From NCBI GenBank assembly GCA_039030075.1, contig JBCCEW010000003.1, positions 186,001 through 250,000 of the forward strand: DNA of 64,000 bases, given 5' to 3'. A program made the translations under genes and the position numbers. This stretch comes from Myxococcota bacterium. Lineage in GTDB: Bacteria > Myxococcota_A > UBA9160 > SMWR01. Below, piece after piece: positions 46,176 through 55,482 of this stretch (position 1 is the stretch's first letter; every line of letters starts with the position of its first letter). The notes beneath the pieces are model-generated. The model saw nothing but the letters and a program-made list of their open reading frames with translations, was not told the DNA's origin and made no database searches.

Positions 46176-47453
46176 ATGCTGGACCCCCGAAGCCTCGCCG
46201 AACGGCGCGACGAGATCCTCGAGAGTTGTCGTCGCCGCGGTGTCGATGCCGACATCGATGCGGCCGTCGCCGCACAGGCGCAGGTCGTGTCGCTCCAGAC
46301 CGAGCTGAACGACGCCAACCGGCAGCGCAACGAGCACCAGGCGGCCGGGAAGAAGAAACTCTCTCCCGAGGAGCGCGAAACCCATACCCAGGAGGGGCGG
46401 CGCCTGAAGGAGAGCGTGGCGGCGATCGAGGTGCGGCTCACCGAAGCGGGCGCGACCCGCGACGAAGCACTGCGCGGCCTGCCGAACTTCGTCCACCCCG
46501 ATTCTCCGGTGGGCGGAGAAGAAGACTTCACCACGCTGCGGACGGTGGGCCAGCCCACACGCTTCGACTTCGAGGCGCGCGATCACCTCGCGCTGGGCCA
46601 GGCGCTCGACCTCTTCGACTTCGAGTCGGGGGCGAAGGTCACCGGGCAGAAGTTCTACTTCTTGAAGAACGAGGCCGTACTCCTCGAGCTCGCCCTGCAA
46701 CGGCTGGCGCTCGAGGTCGCCATGCGCGCCGGCTTCCGCATCTTCACGACGCCCGACCTCGCCAGGCGCCGCATCGTCGATGCCATGGCGTTCAGCCCGC
46801 GCGGCCCCGAGACCCAGATCTATTCGGTCGAGGGCACGGATCTCGACCTGATCGGAACCGCCGAGATCACCCTGGGCGGGCTCTACGAAGACACGGTCCT
46901 CGACGAGGACGAGCTCCCGTTGAAGCTGGCCGGCATCTCTCACTGCTACCGCACCGAGGCGGGCTCGGCGGGGCGCGAGAGCAAGGGCCTCTACCGCGTT
47001 CACCAGTTCACGAAGGTCGAGATGTTCGCCTTCACCCGGCCGGAAGACTCGCCGGCGATGCACGACGAGCTGCTCGCGATCGAAGAGGAGGTCTTCCAGG
47101 CCCTCGAGGTCCCCTACCGGGTCATCGACATCGCCACCGGCGACCTCGGCGCACCGGCGTACCGAAAGTTCGACATCGAAGCCTGGCTCCCCGGCCGCGG
47201 CGAAGGCGGCGACTACGGCGAGGTCACGAGCACCTCGAACTGCACCGACTTCCAGGCGCGACGCCTGAAGACCCGCTTCCGCCGCAAGGACACGAAGAAG
47301 AACGAGCTCGTCCACACGCTGAACGGAACGGCGGTGGCGATCTCGCGAGCACTGATCGCCGTCCTCGAGAACCACCAACAGGGCGACGGATCGGTCGTCG
47401 TTCCGAAGGCGCTGCGCCCGCACACGGGCTTCGACCGCATTGGGCCCCGCTGA
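46176..47453 (+). CDS. serS: Seryl-tRNA synthetase
   Basis: A 425-residue class II synthetase charging tRNA-Ser, and also tRNA-Sec. The N-terminal long coiled-coil arm (about residues 30-100) recognises the tRNA. Motif 2 lies in SHCYRTEAGSAGRESKGLYRVHQFTKVEMF and motif 3 in LNGTAVAISRALIAVLEN. TAEITLGGLY lies in the active site. The start MLDPRSLAERRDEI is standard for SerRS. The reading frame of selB begins 14 bp before its stop, so the two are translationally coupled. Confidence 0.97.
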   Translation: MLDPRSLAERRDEILESCRRRGVDADIDAAVAAQAQVVSLQTELNDANRQRNEHQAAGKKKLSPEERETHTQEGRRLKESVAAIEVRLTEAGATRDEALRGLPNFVHPDSPVGGEEDFTTLRTVGQPTRFDFEARDHLALGQALDLFDFESGAKVTGQKFYFLKNEAVLLELALQRLALEVAMRAGFRIFTTPDLARRRIVDAMAFSPRGPETQIYSVEGTDLDLIGTAEITLGGLYEDTVLDEDELPLKLAGISHCYRTEAGSAGRESKGLYRVHQFTKVEMFAFTRPEDSPAMHDELLAIEEEVFQALEVPYRVIDIATGDLGAPAYRKFDIEAWLPGRGEGGDYGEVTSTSNCTDFQARRLKTRFRRKDTKKNELVHTLNGTAVAISRALIAVLENHQQGDGSVVVPKALRPHTGFDRIGPR

Positions 47454-49383
47454 ACGTCGACTGATCCTCGGCACCGCCGGTCACATCGACCACGGCAAGA
47501 CGGCGCTCTGCCGCGCGCTGACCGGTGTCGAGACCGATCGACTCCCGGAAGAGAAGAAGCGCGGCATCACCATCGAGCTGGGCTTCGCGCCCCTCGACCT
47601 GCCCGACGGCACCCGTCTGGGCGTCGTCGACGTGCCCGGACACGAAGCGCTGGTGCGCACGATGGTGGCCGGGGCCGCCGGCATCGACCTCTTGTTGCTC
47701 GTGGTCGCCGCGGACGAAGGGGTGATGCCCCAGACGCGAGAACACCTCGCGATCTGCTCCCTGCTCGGCATCCGCGAGGGCGTGGTCGCGCTGACGAAGA
47801 TCGACCTCGTCGACGAGGAGATGTTGGAACTCGCGAGCGAGGAGGTGCGCGATCTGCTCGCGCCCACCCTGCTGCGTGATGCGCCGCTGCTCGGCGTCTC
47901 TTCGGAGACGGGAGCGGGTCTCGACGCACTGCGCGAGGCACTCTCGGCGGCGGCGCAGGCCGCCGACGCGCGCACGCCCCGGCAGGGCCCCCCGCGGCTG
48001 CCGATCGATCGCAGCTTCGAGATGCGCGGCTTCGGGCCGGTCGTCACGGGAACGCTTCTCGGCAGTGCGTTCGCCGTCGGCGATTCGGTCGCTCTGCTGC
48101 CTGGCGAGGAACGCGCGCGCATTCGCGGCCTGCAGAGCCACGGTGAGAGCGTCGAGCGGGTCGAGCCGGGAGCGCGCTGCGCGGTGAATCTACAAGGCGT
48201 GGCGCTCGAGGACCTTTCGCGCGGCCAGGTGGTGAGCCCGGTCGGCGCGCTGCCCACCACCACGACCCTCGACGTGCGTCTGCACTGGCTTCCGGAAGCC
48301 CCCGACCTCGAGGAGCCCACCTCGATCGCGTTCCTCTCGGGTACCACCGAGCGACTCGGCCGCGTGGCTCCGATCGGCGCAGCACGTCTCGACGCCGGCG
48401 GCAGCGGCTTTGCGCGGATCCACCTGGAGGGCGAACCCGTCGCGGTGCTCCCCGGCGATCACTTCGTGTTGCGCGGCTTCGCGCGGACGGCGGTGGGAGC
48501 GACCCTCGGCGGGGGCACGCTCTTGGACATCGCACCGCCGCACCGGCGTCGCAGCGATCCGGCCCTCGTTTCGGATCTCGAGATCCTCGAACGGCGGGAG
48601 CCTTCCTCCAAGGTCTCGGTGCGGGTGCAGCGCAGCGGTTTGGCCGGTGTGGAGCGCGAAACACTCGCGCGCGAGACAGGGCAGCTCGCGCGGACGCTCG
48701 ACGCGATTCTGGCGGAAGGCGAGCGCGACGGCTGGGTCCGTGTGGCGCGGGAGCGCTGCATCTCGGGCGACGCCCTGGACGAACTCGAGAGCCGGCTCCG
48801 CTCCGCCCTCGACGACTACCACCGGGCCGAGCCCCTGCGCCCGGGCATGCCCGCCGGTGCGCTGCGCGGCGTGCTCCCCGACAACGTCCACCCGGCCAGC
48901 GTCGAGTGTGCGCTCGAGCGGCTCGCGGCCTCGGGCGAGGTGGTGCGCGAGAGCGACCACGTCCGGCTCGCGAGCCACCGGCCCTCGCTCGATGCCGAGA
49001 GCGAGAAGCACTGCGCGACGCTCGTCGAGCGGCTCGGCACGGCGGGGCTCGAAGCCCCTTCCCTGCGCGACCTCGGCGAAGCGACGGGTCTCGACGAAGG
49101 GCCGCTGCGCGACCTGCTCGCTCACCTCGCCCGCGAAGGACGGATCGTGCCTGCACCGGGTGATCTGTGGTTCGACGCCGCTGCCGTCGAGTCTCTGCGC
49201 GACCGCGTGCGCGCCCACTTCGAATCGAACGACGCTCTCGACACCAAAGCGTTCAAGGCCCTGATCGGCACTACCCGACGCACCGCCGTGCCGCTGATGG
49301 AACTCCTCGACGCCGAGCGCTTCACCGTGCGGCGCGGCGACGTGCGACTGCTACGCGACGCCGCTCAGCCGCGGCAGTCGTAG
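47440..49383 (+). CDS. selB: Selenocysteine-specific elongation factor SelB
   Basis: A 647-residue GTPase delivering Sec-tRNA(Sec) to UGA codons flagged by a SECIS element. G1 is GHIDHGKT (14-21), G2/G3 are KRGITIELGF and DVPGHE, and G4 is TKID. EF-Tu-like domains 2 and 3 follow, then a C-terminal winged-helix domain 4 (from about 390) for SECIS binding. The TTG start at 47440 overlaps serS by 14 bp, so it relies on coupling. The selA, selC and selD genes are not in the window. Its presence implies selenoproteins elsewhere in the genome. Stop overlaps lepB's 3' end by 19 bp. Confidence 0.95.
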   Translation: MGPAERRLILGTAGHIDHGKTALCRALTGVETDRLPEEKKRGITIELGFAPLDLPDGTRLGVVDVPGHEALVRTMVAGAAGIDLLLLVVAADEGVMPQTREHLAICSLLGIREGVVALTKIDLVDEEMLELASEEVRDLLAPTLLRDAPLLGVSSETGAGLDALREALSAAAQAADARTPRQGPPRLPIDRSFEMRGFGPVVTGTLLGSAFAVGDSVALLPGEERARIRGLQSHGESVERVEPGARCAVNLQGVALEDLSRGQVVSPVGALPTTTTLDVRLHWLPEAPDLEEPTSIAFLSGTTERLGRVAPIGAARLDAGGSGFARIHLEGEPVAVLPGDHFVLRGFARTAVGATLGGGTLLDIAPPHRRRSDPALVSDLEILERREPSSKVSVRVQRSGLAGVERETLARETGQLARTLDAILAEGERDGWVRVARERCISGDALDELESRLRSALDDYHRAEPLRPGMPAGALRGVLPDNVHPASVECALERLAASGEVVRESDHVRLASHRPSLDAESEKHCATLVERLGTAGLEAPSLRDLGEATGLDEGPLRDLLAHLAREGRIVPAPGDLWFDAAAVESLRDRVRAHFESNDALDTKAFKALIGTTRRTAVPLMELLDAERFTVRRGDVRLLRDAAQPRQS

Positions 49384-50383: not shown

Positions 50384-51616
50384 CTACTGACTCGCGAGCA
50401 CCACCAGGAGCATCTGCGCGAACTGGGACTCGCTGGTCACGCCCGCCATGGTGAGATAGTTCTGGAGCGGCGTCGGGAACCCGGTCTGCCCCATCGCCAC
50501 GTACGTGAGCTGGCTCTGGTTGAAGGACCACTGCTCCATCGCCTGTTGTTGGGTGATCACCACCTTCTGCATGCCGCTCGGCAGCTGGACCACCGAGATC
50601 TCGAAGCCACCACCCGAGGCACCACCCCCCGCGCTGCCGCTACTGCTCGAGTAGCCGTTCACCCAGGCTTCGACGAACTCCTCTTGCATCGCGTCGCGAA
50701 CCTCCTCGAGACCCTGGTCCATGATCGCGTCCTTCATCGCGCTCTTCTTCATGCGGTTCATTCGATCACCGCGGCTTCGCTCGCCCATCTTCGCCGGCTT
50801 CTGTTCGCCGACCTCCTGCATGCTCGCCACCTTCGCGTCCCCGACCTTTGCGAGGCGGCGTGCCAACTCCGGATCGGCCTGAGTCGCGCGACGCAGCACC
50901 TCTCCGCGGTAGGTGATGCGGGCCGCCTCCCGCACGCGTTCGACGGCGCCCCCGCGAGCGAGGTTGTGCTCCCGGAGCGCGACGCGCGGCGGAGCCGCGG
51001 CGCCCGACCAGCTGTTCCAGGGGTCGTCCTCCCGCAGCAGGAAGAGTTCGATACCTCCGCCGCCGGTTCCCAGCGCTCGAAATCCCTCGCGGACCATCAC
51101 CTCGCGCGCGGCTTCGAGCGCAAGCGTTTTCACGCCAACGGCCCCGTGATACACGGCGACGCCCGGCCCCTTCCCGGAGAGATCCACGGCGAAGCGCGTG
51201 CCCTTCACGCTGACGACGATCTCGGGCGTGCGCACTTCGTAGCGCTTCCCCGGGCGACGCTTCACGTCGAAGAGTCCGGCGCCCGACTCCATGTCGAGGG
51301 TTTCCACGCTGCCCGTTGCCCCGGGCAGTCGCAGTACCGAATCACCGTAGAGGCGGACGGTAGAGCCCTGCCACACCAGCTCGACCTTGCCGTCGGAGCC
51401 GGTGCGCACGATGTCACCGGACTGCAGCGCCTCGCCCGCGCGCAGCGGCATCCAGACAGGAGGCTCGCCGCGTCCGCGCTCGACGGCGCCGCTGGCCGTC
51501 TCGACGGTCGCGAGATCTTCGGCCGCCACCCCGGCGGCTCCGAGAACACCGGCCAGAACCCAGAGGGCGGACCAGCGCACGGCCGCGCGCCCTTTCGTTC
51601 GATGCATGCTCGTCAT
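50384..51616 (-). CDS. FecR-domain exported protein
   Basis: A 410-residue exported protein: signal peptide (WVLAGVLGAAGVAA) then a FecR domain (about residues 45-155), including GDIVRTGSDGKVELVWQGSTVRLYGDSVLRL and VVSVKGTRFAVDLSGKGPGVAVYHGAVGVKT. The rest is unrecognised: a Lys/Met-rich helical region (about 225-310), a Ser/Gly linker (SSSSGSAGGGASGGG) and a Gln-rich C-terminal domain. FecR domains often relay surface signals. AAGGAGA precedes the ATG at 51616. It is the last of a leftward trio with the TPR-barrel and CHASE2 genes. Confidence 0.85.
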   Translation of the reverse strand: MTSMHRTKGRAAVRWSALWVLAGVLGAAGVAAEDLATVETASGAVERGRGEPPVWMPLRAGEALQSGDIVRTGSDGKVELVWQGSTVRLYGDSVLRLPGATGSVETLDMESGAGLFDVKRRPGKRYEVRTPEIVVSVKGTRFAVDLSGKGPGVAVYHGAVGVKTLALEAAREVMVREGFRALGTGGGGIELFLLREDDPWNSWSGAAAPPRVALREHNLARGGAVERVREAARITYRGEVLRRATQADPELARRLAKVGDAKVASMQEVGEQKPAKMGERSRGDRMNRMKKSAMKDAIMDQGLEEVRDAMQEEFVEAWVNGYSSSSGSAGGGASGGGFEISVVQLPSGMQKVVITQQQAMEQWSFNQSQLTYVAMGQTGFPTPLQNYLTMAGVTSESQFAQMLLVVLASQ

Positions 51617-51676
51617 TGGGTCTCCTTTCGTCGCCCCGCCGAGTGGATGGCCACGGCCCCGCGTGAGCCGCGGACG

Positions 51677-53209
51677 TCAAAGCGTCGAAATCCGGAATGC
51701 CACTCCGTAGATGGAGCGGTCGTAGTCGTAGAGGTCTGCGTTCGAGAAGCGCTGGAGGTAGGACCAGCGCAACTCGAGCTCGATCGGTTCGAAGATCGGT
51801 CGGCTGAGGACCACACTGCTGTCGAGCACCCAGTCCTCGCGCGGTTCGGCGCGCGCGAGGTCGCCCACCTGCAGTCGGTTCAGGAACTCGAGCAGGTTGT
51901 CGTTCGCGTAGCGCTCGGCCGCGAGGCTCGCGTTCGTCTGCAGCGCGAACGCGAAGGGCAAGGCGAAGCGGGTGCGGACACCGCCGCGATAGCGGTCGTG
52001 GTCGAAGTCTCCCTCGAACCCGAGCAGGTCGTCCTCGGACTCGGTCTCGCTGCGTTGCCAGTCGGCGTACCAACCCGCCCAGGCTTCGGAGAGCCCGGGG
52101 ACCTGGAAGAAGTGCTCGAACCCGCCGCCGAAGCTGTTGCCGTCGCGCTCGAGCGACGTGAAGAGCGGACGGTCGTCGTAGCGCACCCAGGCGTAGTTGC
52201 CCCAGAGACGAAGCACACCCGCCTTCTCTCCGAAGCCGAACAGGAAGTTCGGTCGTAGATCCGTGCGCTGGAAGTAGGAACGATCGTCGAGGAAGCTGTG
52301 GCCGTATAGGCCGTCGAAGCGCAGCGAAGCACGCGGAGACAGGTTCCAGCGCAGCGAACCGGATCCCCCGACGTCGTGGCCGTCGAAGAGATCCTCTTCG
52401 CGGTAGTCGGTCCCTTCGTAGAAGGCACTGGTCACGAAACCGAAGCGTCGACTCGAGCCTTCGCCCGAGAGCGCCGGCAGCGGAACGTCCCAGGTCACCG
52501 CCGATCCCCAGGTCGCCGCGAAGTCCCCGTCGATGTCGACTCCCGGCACCGCGCCGCTCTCGAGCCGCACGTTGTCCTCGTACTGGACGCCCGCGTGGGC
52601 ATCGATCTCGAGACCGTAGTAGCGGCGCTCGCGAAGCTGCTGGCGCAGGAGCAGGCGCGCCCCGTGCGCGGCATCGCCGTCCGGGTCGACGGCGATCGTC
52701 TCCTCGAGCAGGGCGTGGGCGGTTTCGAGGTCGTCGCGCTCGAGCCGACCCAGCGCGCGGAGCAGCAGCGCCTCGGAGGCCAGTTCGGGTGCGTAGTGGG
52801 CCGCGAAGCGGAACTGGGCATCCGCGTCCTCGAGGCGTCCCACGGCGCGCAGCGCCAGCCCGAGATGGAAGCGTGCCGGACCCGACGTGGGCTGCTGCGC
52901 CACCGCTCCTTCCAGGTGCGGGATCGCCTCGGCGTCCTGGCCCTGGGACGAGAGCAGGCGTCCGAGCAGCAGGCGAACGCCGGGACGCCGCTCGGGCCAG
53001 CGCCGGACCAGCGCGCGCAGTTGATCGATCGCGGCCTCGGTCTCGCCGGCGTCGGCCAGCTCGCGGGCCAGCAACCAGGCGAGGTCCGGATCTTCCGGGT
53101 GCGCGGCGGCGGCCTCGGCCAGACGGTCGGTCGACTCCGAGCTCGCCGCGATCGAAGGAGCGACGGCGAGCCACGCCAGCAGTACGGCGAGTCCGACGCG
53201 CCGCTTCAC
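51677..53209 (-). CDS. TPR plus outer-membrane beta-barrel protein (Slam-like architecture)
   Basis: A 510-residue protein: signal peptide (VGLAVLLAWLAVAPSIAA), a periplasmic tetratricopeptide region of about four to five repeats (residues ~25-190, e.g. AIDQLRALVRRWPERRPGVRLLLGRLL), then a C-terminal beta-barrel (~195-510) ending in DYDRSIYGVAFRISTL with a terminal aromatic-type strand. This order of TPR then barrel is that of Slam-type (DUF560) surface lipoprotein translocators and of some polysaccharide secretins; the match is structural, not proven. The GTG at 53209 overlaps the TGA of the CHASE2 gene (GTGA). Confidence 0.75.
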   Translation of the reverse strand: MKRRVGLAVLLAWLAVAPSIAASSESTDRLAEAAAAHPEDPDLAWLLARELADAGETEAAIDQLRALVRRWPERRPGVRLLLGRLLSSQGQDAEAIPHLEGAVAQQPTSGPARFHLGLALRAVGRLEDADAQFRFAAHYAPELASEALLLRALGRLERDDLETAHALLEETIAVDPDGDAAHGARLLLRQQLRERRYYGLEIDAHAGVQYEDNVRLESGAVPGVDIDGDFAATWGSAVTWDVPLPALSGEGSSRRFGFVTSAFYEGTDYREEDLFDGHDVGGSGSLRWNLSPRASLRFDGLYGHSFLDDRSYFQRTDLRPNFLFGFGEKAGVLRLWGNYAWVRYDDRPLFTSLERDGNSFGGGFEHFFQVPGLSEAWAGWYADWQRSETESEDDLLGFEGDFDHDRYRGGVRTRFALPFAFALQTNASLAAERYANDNLLEFLNRLQVGDLARAEPREDWVLDSSVVLSRPIFEPIELELRWSYLQRFSNADLYDYDRSIYGVAFRISTL

Positions 53210-55482
53210 GAGCCCACCGCCCCGACCTTGGCGACCACGGCCAGCATCTCTTCGCCTTCCTCGTCGAGCACCTGCAGGAACGTGTCCACCACCTGGGGGT
53301 CGAACTGGACGCCGCGGCCCTTGGCGAGGATGTCCAGGACGCGGTCTTGCTCGAAGGCGGGCTTGTAGGGACGCGCCGTCGACAGCGCGTCCCAGACGTC
53401 GACCACCGAGACGATGCGCGCGCCCATCGGAATCGCGTCGCCGACCAGGCCGTCGGGATAGCCGCCGCCGTCCCAGCGCTCGTGGTGGTGACGGACACAG
53501 GCGCGGGTCAGCGGCCCGAGACCGTGGATGCCGCCGACGATGCCGTCGCCGACGACCGTGTGGCTCTCCATGATCGCCCGCTCCTCGGGCGTGAACCGGT
53601 CGGGCTTCAGCAGCACTTCGTCGCGGATCCCGATCTTTCCGACATCGTGGAGCAGAGCGCCGAGTCGGATCTCCTCGATCTCTTCGTCCGACAACCCGAA
53701 ACGGTCGGCCACCAGGGTCGAGAACAGCGCCAGGCGCCGGCAGTGAGACTCGGTGTAGCCGTCGCGTGCTTCGATCGCGCACGCGATCGCCTCGATCGAC
53801 GAATCGAAGGTGGCGCGCAGCCCGTCGATCAAGCGGAGGTTCTCGGCGGACAGCGTCACCTGGGTGCCCACCGTGGCGATCGTACGCAGGGCCGTATCGT
53901 CGAGAGCTTCCTCGCGGTCGCGCTCGACCACCAGCACTCCAACCGGTCGGCCGCCGGCGAAGAGCGGCGCGTAGTGCGCGATCCCGCGCCGGCCGCTGCT
54001 CGCGAGTTCGCTCTCGACGGACTCGCGGCGCCGTTGCTGGAGTGCGCGATCGACCCAGACTTCCTCGCCGATCGCCCCGTCCCCACGACGCCTCCATTCG
54101 ATGCGGCGTCCATCCAGCCCGCTCTCGCCGGCGCGCCAGAGGGCGACACCGCTGGCATCGACCACATCTCCGAGGAGCGCCAATGCCGTCCCGATCCCGC
54201 CCTGATCGTGCTGGGCCGACGTCGCCTCGCCGACGCGCTGCAACGCGGTCAGCGACTGTTCGCGTTCGGCCAGGCTCTTGCCGAAGCGACTGCGGACGCG
54301 TTCGAGCCCCACGACGTACTGGGCGCCGAGCATGCCGAGCGGCACGACCGGGGAGAGCAGCCCACCCGTGAACACCGCACTCGTCGTGGTGCCCGCGGCC
54401 ACCGCGACGGCGAGACTCCCCAGCACTGCGGAGCGCCGCGCGTGGCTCTGATTGCGCAGGGCGAAGGCGAAGACGGTGAGCGCGAACAGCAGACCGACGG
54501 CGACCGGCGTCGAGGCTTCGCGGAGGGTCGGTTGCCCTTCGCGTTCGGCCGCCAACGTGCGGAGCAGGATCGCCTGGATCCACACGCCGGCGCGGGCGGG
54601 GCCCACCGGGGTGGGCCAGAGGTCCTGGAACTCGACCGCCGTCGCACCGATGAAGACGACGCGCCCCGCGACGTCGCGCGAGTCGAAGCGTCCGTCGAGC
54701 ACGTCCGCCACCGACAGGGTGCGGACCTCGGGCGCGACGCGGCGGTAGTCGACGCGGATGGGAGTCTGATCAGTCGAGATGGGAGTCTGATCAGTCGGGA
54801 TGGGGTTTTGCTCGACCGGGACCGGAGGACGGTCGGCCGCGATCGTTGCGCCTTCCGCCGACGCATTCGCGGCTTCGCGGTTCGCGACTCCCAGCGCCGC
54901 CTCCGCGAGCGTCGGGACGTCGACACCGCGGATGTCGACACTGCGGCGGCCACGGCGGACCACGCCATCTTCGTCGACGATCATGTGGACACTGCCGATC
55001 GCCGCGCTCGCTTCGGCCAGGATCGGCGCGGGCCGATTCGCGATCTCGAGCTCGGCGCCGCCGGGAAGCGTCTGCACCTGCTTGAACGACGCGAGCACGA
55101 CGTTGCCGGCGGCGCGCATCGCGCGGGCGAAGGCCGCATCGCCCGCGGCATCGCGGGGCGTCGAGAAGTCGATATCGAAGGCGATCGAGGACGCGCCCGC
55201 GTCCGCGAGGTGCTCGACCAGCCGTGCGTGCACGTCGCGCGACCAGGGCCAGTCGGGGAGCGCACGAAGGCTCTGGGGATCGATCGCGATCACGACCGCA
55301 TCGGGCTGACCTCCCGCGAGCGGCGGCGGCGACACCCGGGCCGCGCGCAGCTGCGCGTCGATCGCGAGCCGATCCAAGGACGCGGTTCCGCCCTGTACGA
55401 GCAACGCCGTCGCCAGGCCGAACAGGGCCAGGGCCACGACGCCTTCGAACGGGCGTCGCAGGGCGCGCGTGAGACTTCCCAT
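53206..55482 (-). CDS. CHASE2-GAF-HD-GYP cyclic-di-GMP phosphodiesterase receptor
   Basis: A 758-residue membrane protein: one N-terminal helix (14-32), a large CHASE2 extracytoplasmic sensor (~35-310), three membrane helices (~325-390), a GAF-like domain (~420-545) and an HD-GYP domain (~555-745). Metal and signature residues are His612-Asp613 (HDVGKIGI), HHHERW near 665, and GYP 674-676, so it should be active in degrading c-di-GMP. An unusual 7-residue repeat of TDQTPIS type lies at 226-243 within the CHASE2 part. No SD is seen before the ATG at 55482. It heads a leftward operon with TPR-barrel and FecR genes. Confidence 0.92.
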   Translation of the reverse strand: MGSLTRALRRPFEGVVALALFGLATALLVQGGTASLDRLAIDAQLRAARVSPPPLAGGQPDAVVIAIDPQSLRALPDWPWSRDVHARLVEHLADAGASSIAFDIDFSTPRDAAGDAAFARAMRAAGNVVLASFKQVQTLPGGAELEIANRPAPILAEASAAIGSVHMIVDEDGVVRRGRRSVDIRGVDVPTLAEAALGVANREAANASAEGATIAADRPPVPVEQNPIPTDQTPISTDQTPIRVDYRRVAPEVRTLSVADVLDGRFDSRDVAGRVVFIGATAVEFQDLWPTPVGPARAGVWIQAILLRTLAAEREGQPTLREASTPVAVGLLFALTVFAFALRNQSHARRSAVLGSLAVAVAAGTTTSAVFTGGLLSPVVPLGMLGAQYVVGLERVRSRFGKSLAEREQSLTALQRVGEATSAQHDQGGIGTALALLGDVVDASGVALWRAGESGLDGRRIEWRRRGDGAIGEEVWVDRALQQRRRESVESELASSGRRGIAHYAPLFAGGRPVGVLVVERDREEALDDTALRTIATVGTQVTLSAENLRLIDGLRATFDSSIEAIACAIEARDGYTESHCRRLALFSTLVADRFGLSDEEIEEIRLGALLHDVGKIGIRDEVLLKPDRFTPEERAIMESHTVVGDGIVGGIHGLGPLTRACVRHHHERWDGGGYPDGLVGDAIPMGARIVSVVDVWDALSTARPYKPAFEQDRVLDILAKGRGVQFDPQVVDTFLQVLDEEGEEMLAVVAKVGAVGS
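54757..54805. repeat. 21-bp tandem repeat inside the CHASE2 coding region
   Basis: Unit GATGGGAGTCTGATCAGTCG plus A/G occurs twice in full (54757-54777, 54778-54798) with a third partial copy. It encodes a 7-residue repeat in frame and could vary in copy number. Confidence 0.8.

Follow-up and report, generated by a model that had tools for sequence, protein, structure and literature searches.

The stretch of DNA analyzed here (the window, 64,000 nucleotides of contig JBCCEW010000003.1 from a Myxococcota bacterium) carries at positions 50384–55482 three consecutive minus-strand genes that encode, in the order of transcription, a CHASE2-GAF-HD-GYP receptor, an outer-membrane protein composed of a tetratricopeptide repeat (TPR) domain and a β-barrel, and an exported protein with a FecR domain. 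Sequence comparisons indicate that they probably form one conserved, envelope-spanning signaling unit with a predicted cyclic di-GMP (c-di-GMP) output. The first-pass annotation of the window had described three leftward genes in this order with a GTGA overlap between the first two, and the positions, Pfam domains and coding GC bias agree with that description; in all three frames the GC content is 0.85–0.87 at the third codon position (GC3) and 0.47–0.51 at the second (GC2). The features of the locus are listed below.

53206–55482, minus strand: CHASE2-GAF-HD-GYP receptor, 758 residues, ATG start
54475–55416, minus strand: CHASE2 domain, residues 23–336, predicted periplasmic (Pfam E 3.7e-46)
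53839–54189, minus strand: GAF domain, residues 432–548 (weak Pfam match)
53290–53775, minus strand: HD-GYP domain, residues 570–731 (Pfam HD_5, E 2.4e-29)
53206–53209, minus strand: GTGA, 4-bp overlap of the receptor stop and the barrel start, read from the sequence
51677–53209, minus strand: TPR and β-barrel outer-membrane protein, 510 residues, GTG start, signal peptide
52619–53155, minus strand: TPR helical domain, residues 19–197 (several Pfam TPR families, AlphaFold2)
51686–52615, minus strand: predicted 14-strand β-barrel, residues 199–508 (AlphaFold2, structure alignment)
50384–51616, minus strand: exported FecR-domain protein, 410 residues, ATG start
51137–51412, minus strand: FecR domain, residues 69–160 (Pfam FecR, 51 bits, E 1.6e-13)
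50384–50626, minus strand: C-terminal segment of the FecR-domain protein, last 80 residues, short strands followed by helices
50344–50382, minus strand: GC-rich hairpin just 3' of the FecR stop, by folding energy; possible transcript end

The three proteins and their locus

The receptor has hydrophobic segments at residues 11–29, 324–342 and 353–371, as judged by hydropathy, and these flank the CHASE2 domain on both sides. The CHASE2 match scores 158 bits, well above the Pfam cut-off of 26.3, and the HD_5 match scores 103 bits. The metal ligands and the HHERWDGGGYP motif of the HD-GYP domain are intact, and His580, His612-Asp613, Lys616, His641, His666-His667-Glu668, the GYP triplet at 674–676 and Asp695 are invariant in eight relatives; identity to receptor relatives is 48–56%. 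The alignment with PmGH extends over 215 residues (E 5e-41) and, as we read it, places Tyr576 at the position of the third-metal Glu of that enzyme, which makes a two-metal site the likelier arrangement. By these similarities the domain should be a c-di-GMP phosphodiesterase; the receptor also resembles V-cGAP3 (5z7c), an enzyme specific for cyclic GMP-AMP (cGAMP), and 3'3'-cGAMP may be a substrate. The genome contains 15 GGDEF and 25 PilZ matches, so that a c-di-GMP network is present on which the receptor could act.

The AlphaFold2 model of the second protein, built from 11 sequences, has a mean predicted local distance difference test score (pLDDT) of 83.7 and comprises helices in residues 19–197, where the TPR domain is modeled with confidence, and 14 strands in residues 199–508. 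The barrel part superimposes on the closed 14-strand porins CymA (Z 22.1, 280 residues, 3.7 Å) and OmpG (Z 21), and the helical part aligns with TPR proteins such as MamA. The model thus supports the closed barrel for which the first-pass annotation had asked that structure predictions be searched. Slam proteins consist of N-terminal TPR-like repeats and a 14-strand barrel, and the layout predicted here, a 14-strand barrel with a periplasmic TPR domain, is the same. The description of the barrel as Slam-like was nevertheless not borne out by the family profiles: PF04575 (Slam barrel) gives 12.0 bits against a cut-off of 22 (E 0.29) and PF24575 (TPR_Slam) 22.7 against 35.2 and, unlike the case of Slam, no linked surface lipoprotein was seen. 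An ortholog of the protein reaches 17 bits with PF04575 (E 0.008), and such faint matches leave open a distant kinship. Assignment as a polysaccharide porin was also rejected, since the BcsC model scores 18.6 bits against 858 and the PgaA model 14.8 against 367, with only the generic TPR part matching.

The FecR-domain protein comprises a likely signal peptide, the FecR domain, a variable linker and the C-terminal segment, and hydropathy gave no strong transmembrane segment. The segment had been called an unrecognised Gln-rich C terminus. The composition is as described, with 13 Gln in the last 80 residues, but these residues are the end of a C-terminal segment that, although variable, can be aligned in most relatives and has an outline common to them. 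The protein lacks a Pfam match to DUF4880, a domain that is present in the other FecR protein of the genome, and neither an extracytoplasmic function (ECF) sigma factor gene nor a TonB receptor gene is adjacent to the three genes. A canonical Fec system at this site was rejected on the grounds that both the anti-sigma domain and the sigma gene are missing there and are present elsewhere in the genome. On contig C2 (L178:1814-6252) an ECF sigma factor, a FecR protein with DUF4880 and a divergent TonB receptor with an STN domain form a canonical Fec-type set, and this is a good in-genome control for the three genes.

The genes are bordered by nuoN, 112 bp upstream, and by a signal peptidase I gene, 101 bp downstream, both assigned by Pfam or family models. 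The hairpin that follows the FecR stop has a folding energy of −49 kcal/mol (z −3.9, for a folded stretch of 77 nucleotides) and no T run. A search near the three genes gave neither a sigma-70-type promoter nor a T-tailed terminator, a negative of little weight in this organism. Elsewhere in the window, selB, for selenocysteine incorporation, lies at 47440–49383, and the genome may encode selenoproteins.

Conservation of the set

When 98 relatives were searched with the barrel protein, 11 more genomes had long matches, and a single scan of genome contigs found 11 loci. Together with three genes added by a phylum-wide search (G018, G084 and G085), 14 genomes of the class were found with a CHASE2-HD-GYP gene, and the order CHASE2-HD-GYP, barrel, FecR is kept in 11 of these. 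The 11 comprise three groups. (i) The complete order is found on one contig in eight genomes, namely the window, G045, G075, G051, G066, G056, G050 and G042, the last with a receptor divided into two frames. (ii) In both G007 and G073, two contigs that meet within the barrel gene share the set. (iii) In G059 the contig starts within the HD-GYP domain. In the last two groups the linkage is partly inferred. The first-pass annotation had proposed that the genes act as one signaling unit and had made the proposal depend on their conservation together in related genomes; the recurrence of the order is in keeping with both points. The grouping is not due to chance: the 5.76-Mb genome contains, by profile search, a single CHASE2 gene and only two for FecR proteins, and the same order recurs in many genomes.

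In all eight complete sets the receptor and barrel genes overlap by 4 bp, with differing start codons. The flanking genes vary from genome to genome, indicating that the conserved unit consists of these three genes. Pairwise distances of the three proteins are correlated across ten genomes (r 0.91, 0.89 and 0.83; Mantel p 0.0002 each). The distribution is patchy: the set is present in 2 of the 17 genomes of the window's own family and absent from the other genome of the genus, suggesting that loss or transfer is common. Among 379 genomes of the phylum searched for CHASE2-HD-GYP proteins, full-length matches occurred only within the class, the rest being other HD-GYP proteins; plasmids searched for CHASE2 relatives gave weak matches only. 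Relatives in GenBank are labeled as metagenome-assembled genomes of Myxococcota or Deltaproteobacteria. In G085 a 157-residue, apparently exported protein without a Pfam match (L175:5276-5749) overlaps the CHASE2-HD-GYP gene by 4 bp and occupies the usual place of the barrel.

Related cassettes and known systems

Sixty further CHASE2 loci from the order were surveyed, with FecR and the barrel recognized by profiles. Both partners stand beside the CHASE2 protein in 12 loci; in six others there is a FecR gene and no profile-recognized barrel, and in one of the six the intervening gene, when scanned, encoded a TPR protein. A guanylate/adenylate cyclase domain is present in every representative scanned from the two groups, and the cyclase cassettes occur in two orders, barrel-FecR-CHASE2 cyclase and CHASE2 cyclase-barrel-FecR. 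The remaining 42 loci have no FecR by profiles, many of them being cut by contig ends; one has a barrel, and one is the receptor of G073, the partners of which are on another contig. Of the CHASE2 proteins of the order with a length like that of a shorter, 647-residue cyclase (L117:3908-13078), many lack FecR by profiles. The neighborhood of this cyclase, the one annotated, encodes a CHAT domain protein, two DUF928 proteins and one TPS-domain exoprotein.

Homologs of the barrel are also found beside FecR without CHASE2 (L032, L034, L038 and L050). In the last of these, from the betaproteobacterium Sulfurisoma sediminicola (L050:6317-10145), a TPR-barrel gene precedes two genes with FecR domains, and no CHASE2 gene separates or immediately follows them. 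In two other loci (L047:445-4981 and L049:1-4346) a barrel homolog lies upstream of genes for a short exported protein, an ECF sigma factor and a zf-HC2 anti-sigma protein, sets that possibly mediate surface signaling with a transcriptional output; in L047 a subtilase gene follows. The outer-membrane, periplasmic and CHASE2 parts are constant and the cytoplasmic output is variable, as would be seen if one input module were combined with interchangeable outputs. We suggest tentatively, and at less than even confidence, that the barrel and FecR form a general outer-membrane input module that is plugged into cyclic AMP (cAMP)-type cyclases, perhaps ECF sigma factors (there with the barrel only) and, in the window, a c-di-GMP phosphodiesterase, and that the set in the window would be the first relay of this module from the outer membrane to c-di-GMP to be described.

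The grouping of CHASE2, FecR and TPR proteins is already published with a cyclase output, and for Burkholderia FecR has been described together with a CHASE2 kinase. In Campylobacterota, genes for a CHASE2 adenylate cyclase, a cAMP phosphodiesterase, FecR and TPR proteins are clustered and proposed to form one pathway (PMC9239204). That cluster resembles the set in the window in uniting a CHASE2 receptor, a FecR-domain protein and a TPR protein; it differs in its output, cAMP synthesis, in place of which the window has HD-GYP and no adenylate cyclase. In Sinorhizobium meliloti, as cited in PMC13001267, the outer-membrane barrel NsrA acts upstream of the CHASE2 cyclases CyaD1, CyaD2 and CyaK; by this description an outer-membrane β-barrel is needed for signaling through CHASE2 enzymes, as proposed below, whereas the output is cAMP and that paper mentions no FecR partner. 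The BiofilmReg operon of Burkholderia contaminans (PMC5192318) likewise has an exported FecR-domain protein beside a CHASE2 receptor; unlike the set in the window, it combines a LysM-FecR protein with a histidine kinase output and has no TPR barrel. No description of an HD-GYP version was found in the literature searched, including papers that mention both CHASE2 and HD-GYP; most subscription papers lay outside it, and an earlier account is possible.

A proposed relay and its alternatives

We consider it rather probable that the three proteins form a relay that runs from the TPR-barrel protein through FecR and CHASE2 to HD-GYP, with c-di-GMP hydrolysis as its output. The TPR-barrel protein would sense an event at the surface or in the outer membrane, and its periplasmic TPR domain would use the FecR-domain protein, also in the periplasm, to influence the inner-membrane receptor by way of the CHASE2 domain, which faces the same compartment. 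The cytoplasmic HD-GYP domain would then change its hydrolysis of c-di-GMP, and the change would be read by the GGDEF/PilZ network of the cell. Such a plan would be like that of Fec-type surface signaling (FecA-FecR-FecI), with an outer-membrane barrel, a periplasmic FecR domain and a cytoplasmic output, except that a second-messenger phosphodiesterase would replace the sigma factor; the set also differs from Fec-type systems in lacking the DUF4880 anti-sigma domain, the sigma factor gene, the TonB receptor and the STN domain. The relay is preferred because the constant parts of the cassettes are those of the envelope and CHASE2 and the output varies, and it fits the role of NsrA and the Campylobacterota clusters. 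To what is shown here, namely the conserved order of the genes, their domains, the intact motifs for catalysis and the predicted barrel, it would add contacts between the proteins, a direction of signaling, a ligand and either activation or inhibition of hydrolysis.

These added steps, and with them the relay function itself, are what we infer from sequence, and several observations weigh against the relay. In G018 the FecR gene lies directly behind CHASE2-HD-GYP and there is no barrel; in G084, on a short contig, neither partner accompanies CHASE2-HD-GYP, and in G085 both are missing from the locus, although a different contig carries a barrel/FecR pair. Part of the distance correlation is due to the common ancestry of the genomes. 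The structure model of the FecR-domain protein is poor overall (mean pLDDT 50.9) and better only at approximately residues 31–80 and in the last 50 residues, with C-terminal pLDDT values of about 70–82. Finally, one FecR-domain and one TPR protein of the Clr regulon of S. meliloti, which are different proteins, are reported to be dispensable for signal perception (PMC5498481).

The first-pass annotation had suggested that the set controls, or is controlled by, surface protein export via c-di-GMP. More broadly, the barrel could be an exporter, either for Slam-like assembly of surface lipoproteins or a polysaccharide porin like PgaA, BcsC or PelB, tuned by CHASE2-HD-GYP through c-di-GMP. BcsC, PelB and Slam do indeed combine TPRs with a barrel, the top Foldseek whole-chain match is BcsC (9b8a), and the PF04575 matches of the ortholog and the window protein, however faint, point the same way. 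The barrels of PgaA and BcsC have 16 strands, however, against the 14 predicted here, both PF04575 scores are below the cut-off, and the surroundings of the three genes showed no conserved gene for a synthase, a lipoprotein substrate or another export function. Members of this barrel family are also found with cAMP-type cyclases and with ECF sigma factors, which argues for signal input rather than for export controlled by c-di-GMP, and we regard an exporter as unlikely. Somewhat lower still is the probability that the genes are merely co-inherited and co-expressed, the receptor being a stand-alone c-di-GMP phosphodiesterase and the barrel/FecR pair having an envelope role of its own. Barrel/FecR pairs without CHASE2, and the receptors of G084 and G085 without partners beside them, would be expected of such an arrangement; 11 of the 14 CHASE2-HD-GYP genes are nevertheless linked to both partners, the overlap is a constant 4 bp, and the same families are united in cassettes of other orders.

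Least probable is a reverse flow, in which the GAF domain, located between the membrane segments and HD-GYP, would sense in the cytoplasm and the activity of HD-GYP or the shape of the receptor would gate an outer-membrane pore through CHASE2 and FecR, on the precedent of the inside-out control of an envelope protein by c-di-GMP in LapD/LapG: the GAF match is weak, and it is the enzyme domain, HD-GYP or cyclase, that is exchanged while CHASE2, FecR and the barrel stay, as expected of periplasmic input. The NsrA genetics also point to outside-in signaling (PMC13001267).

What CHASE2 domains sense is largely unsettled, and a compact set of three genes that keeps CHASE2 next to FecR and a TPR barrel, while the enzymatic output differs among relatives, offers a testable answer. 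In the relay proposed here, CHASE2 may respond not to a small molecule but to a protein in the periplasm that conveys the state of the outer membrane. If this is true, c-di-GMP signaling would gain a direct line to the cell surface.

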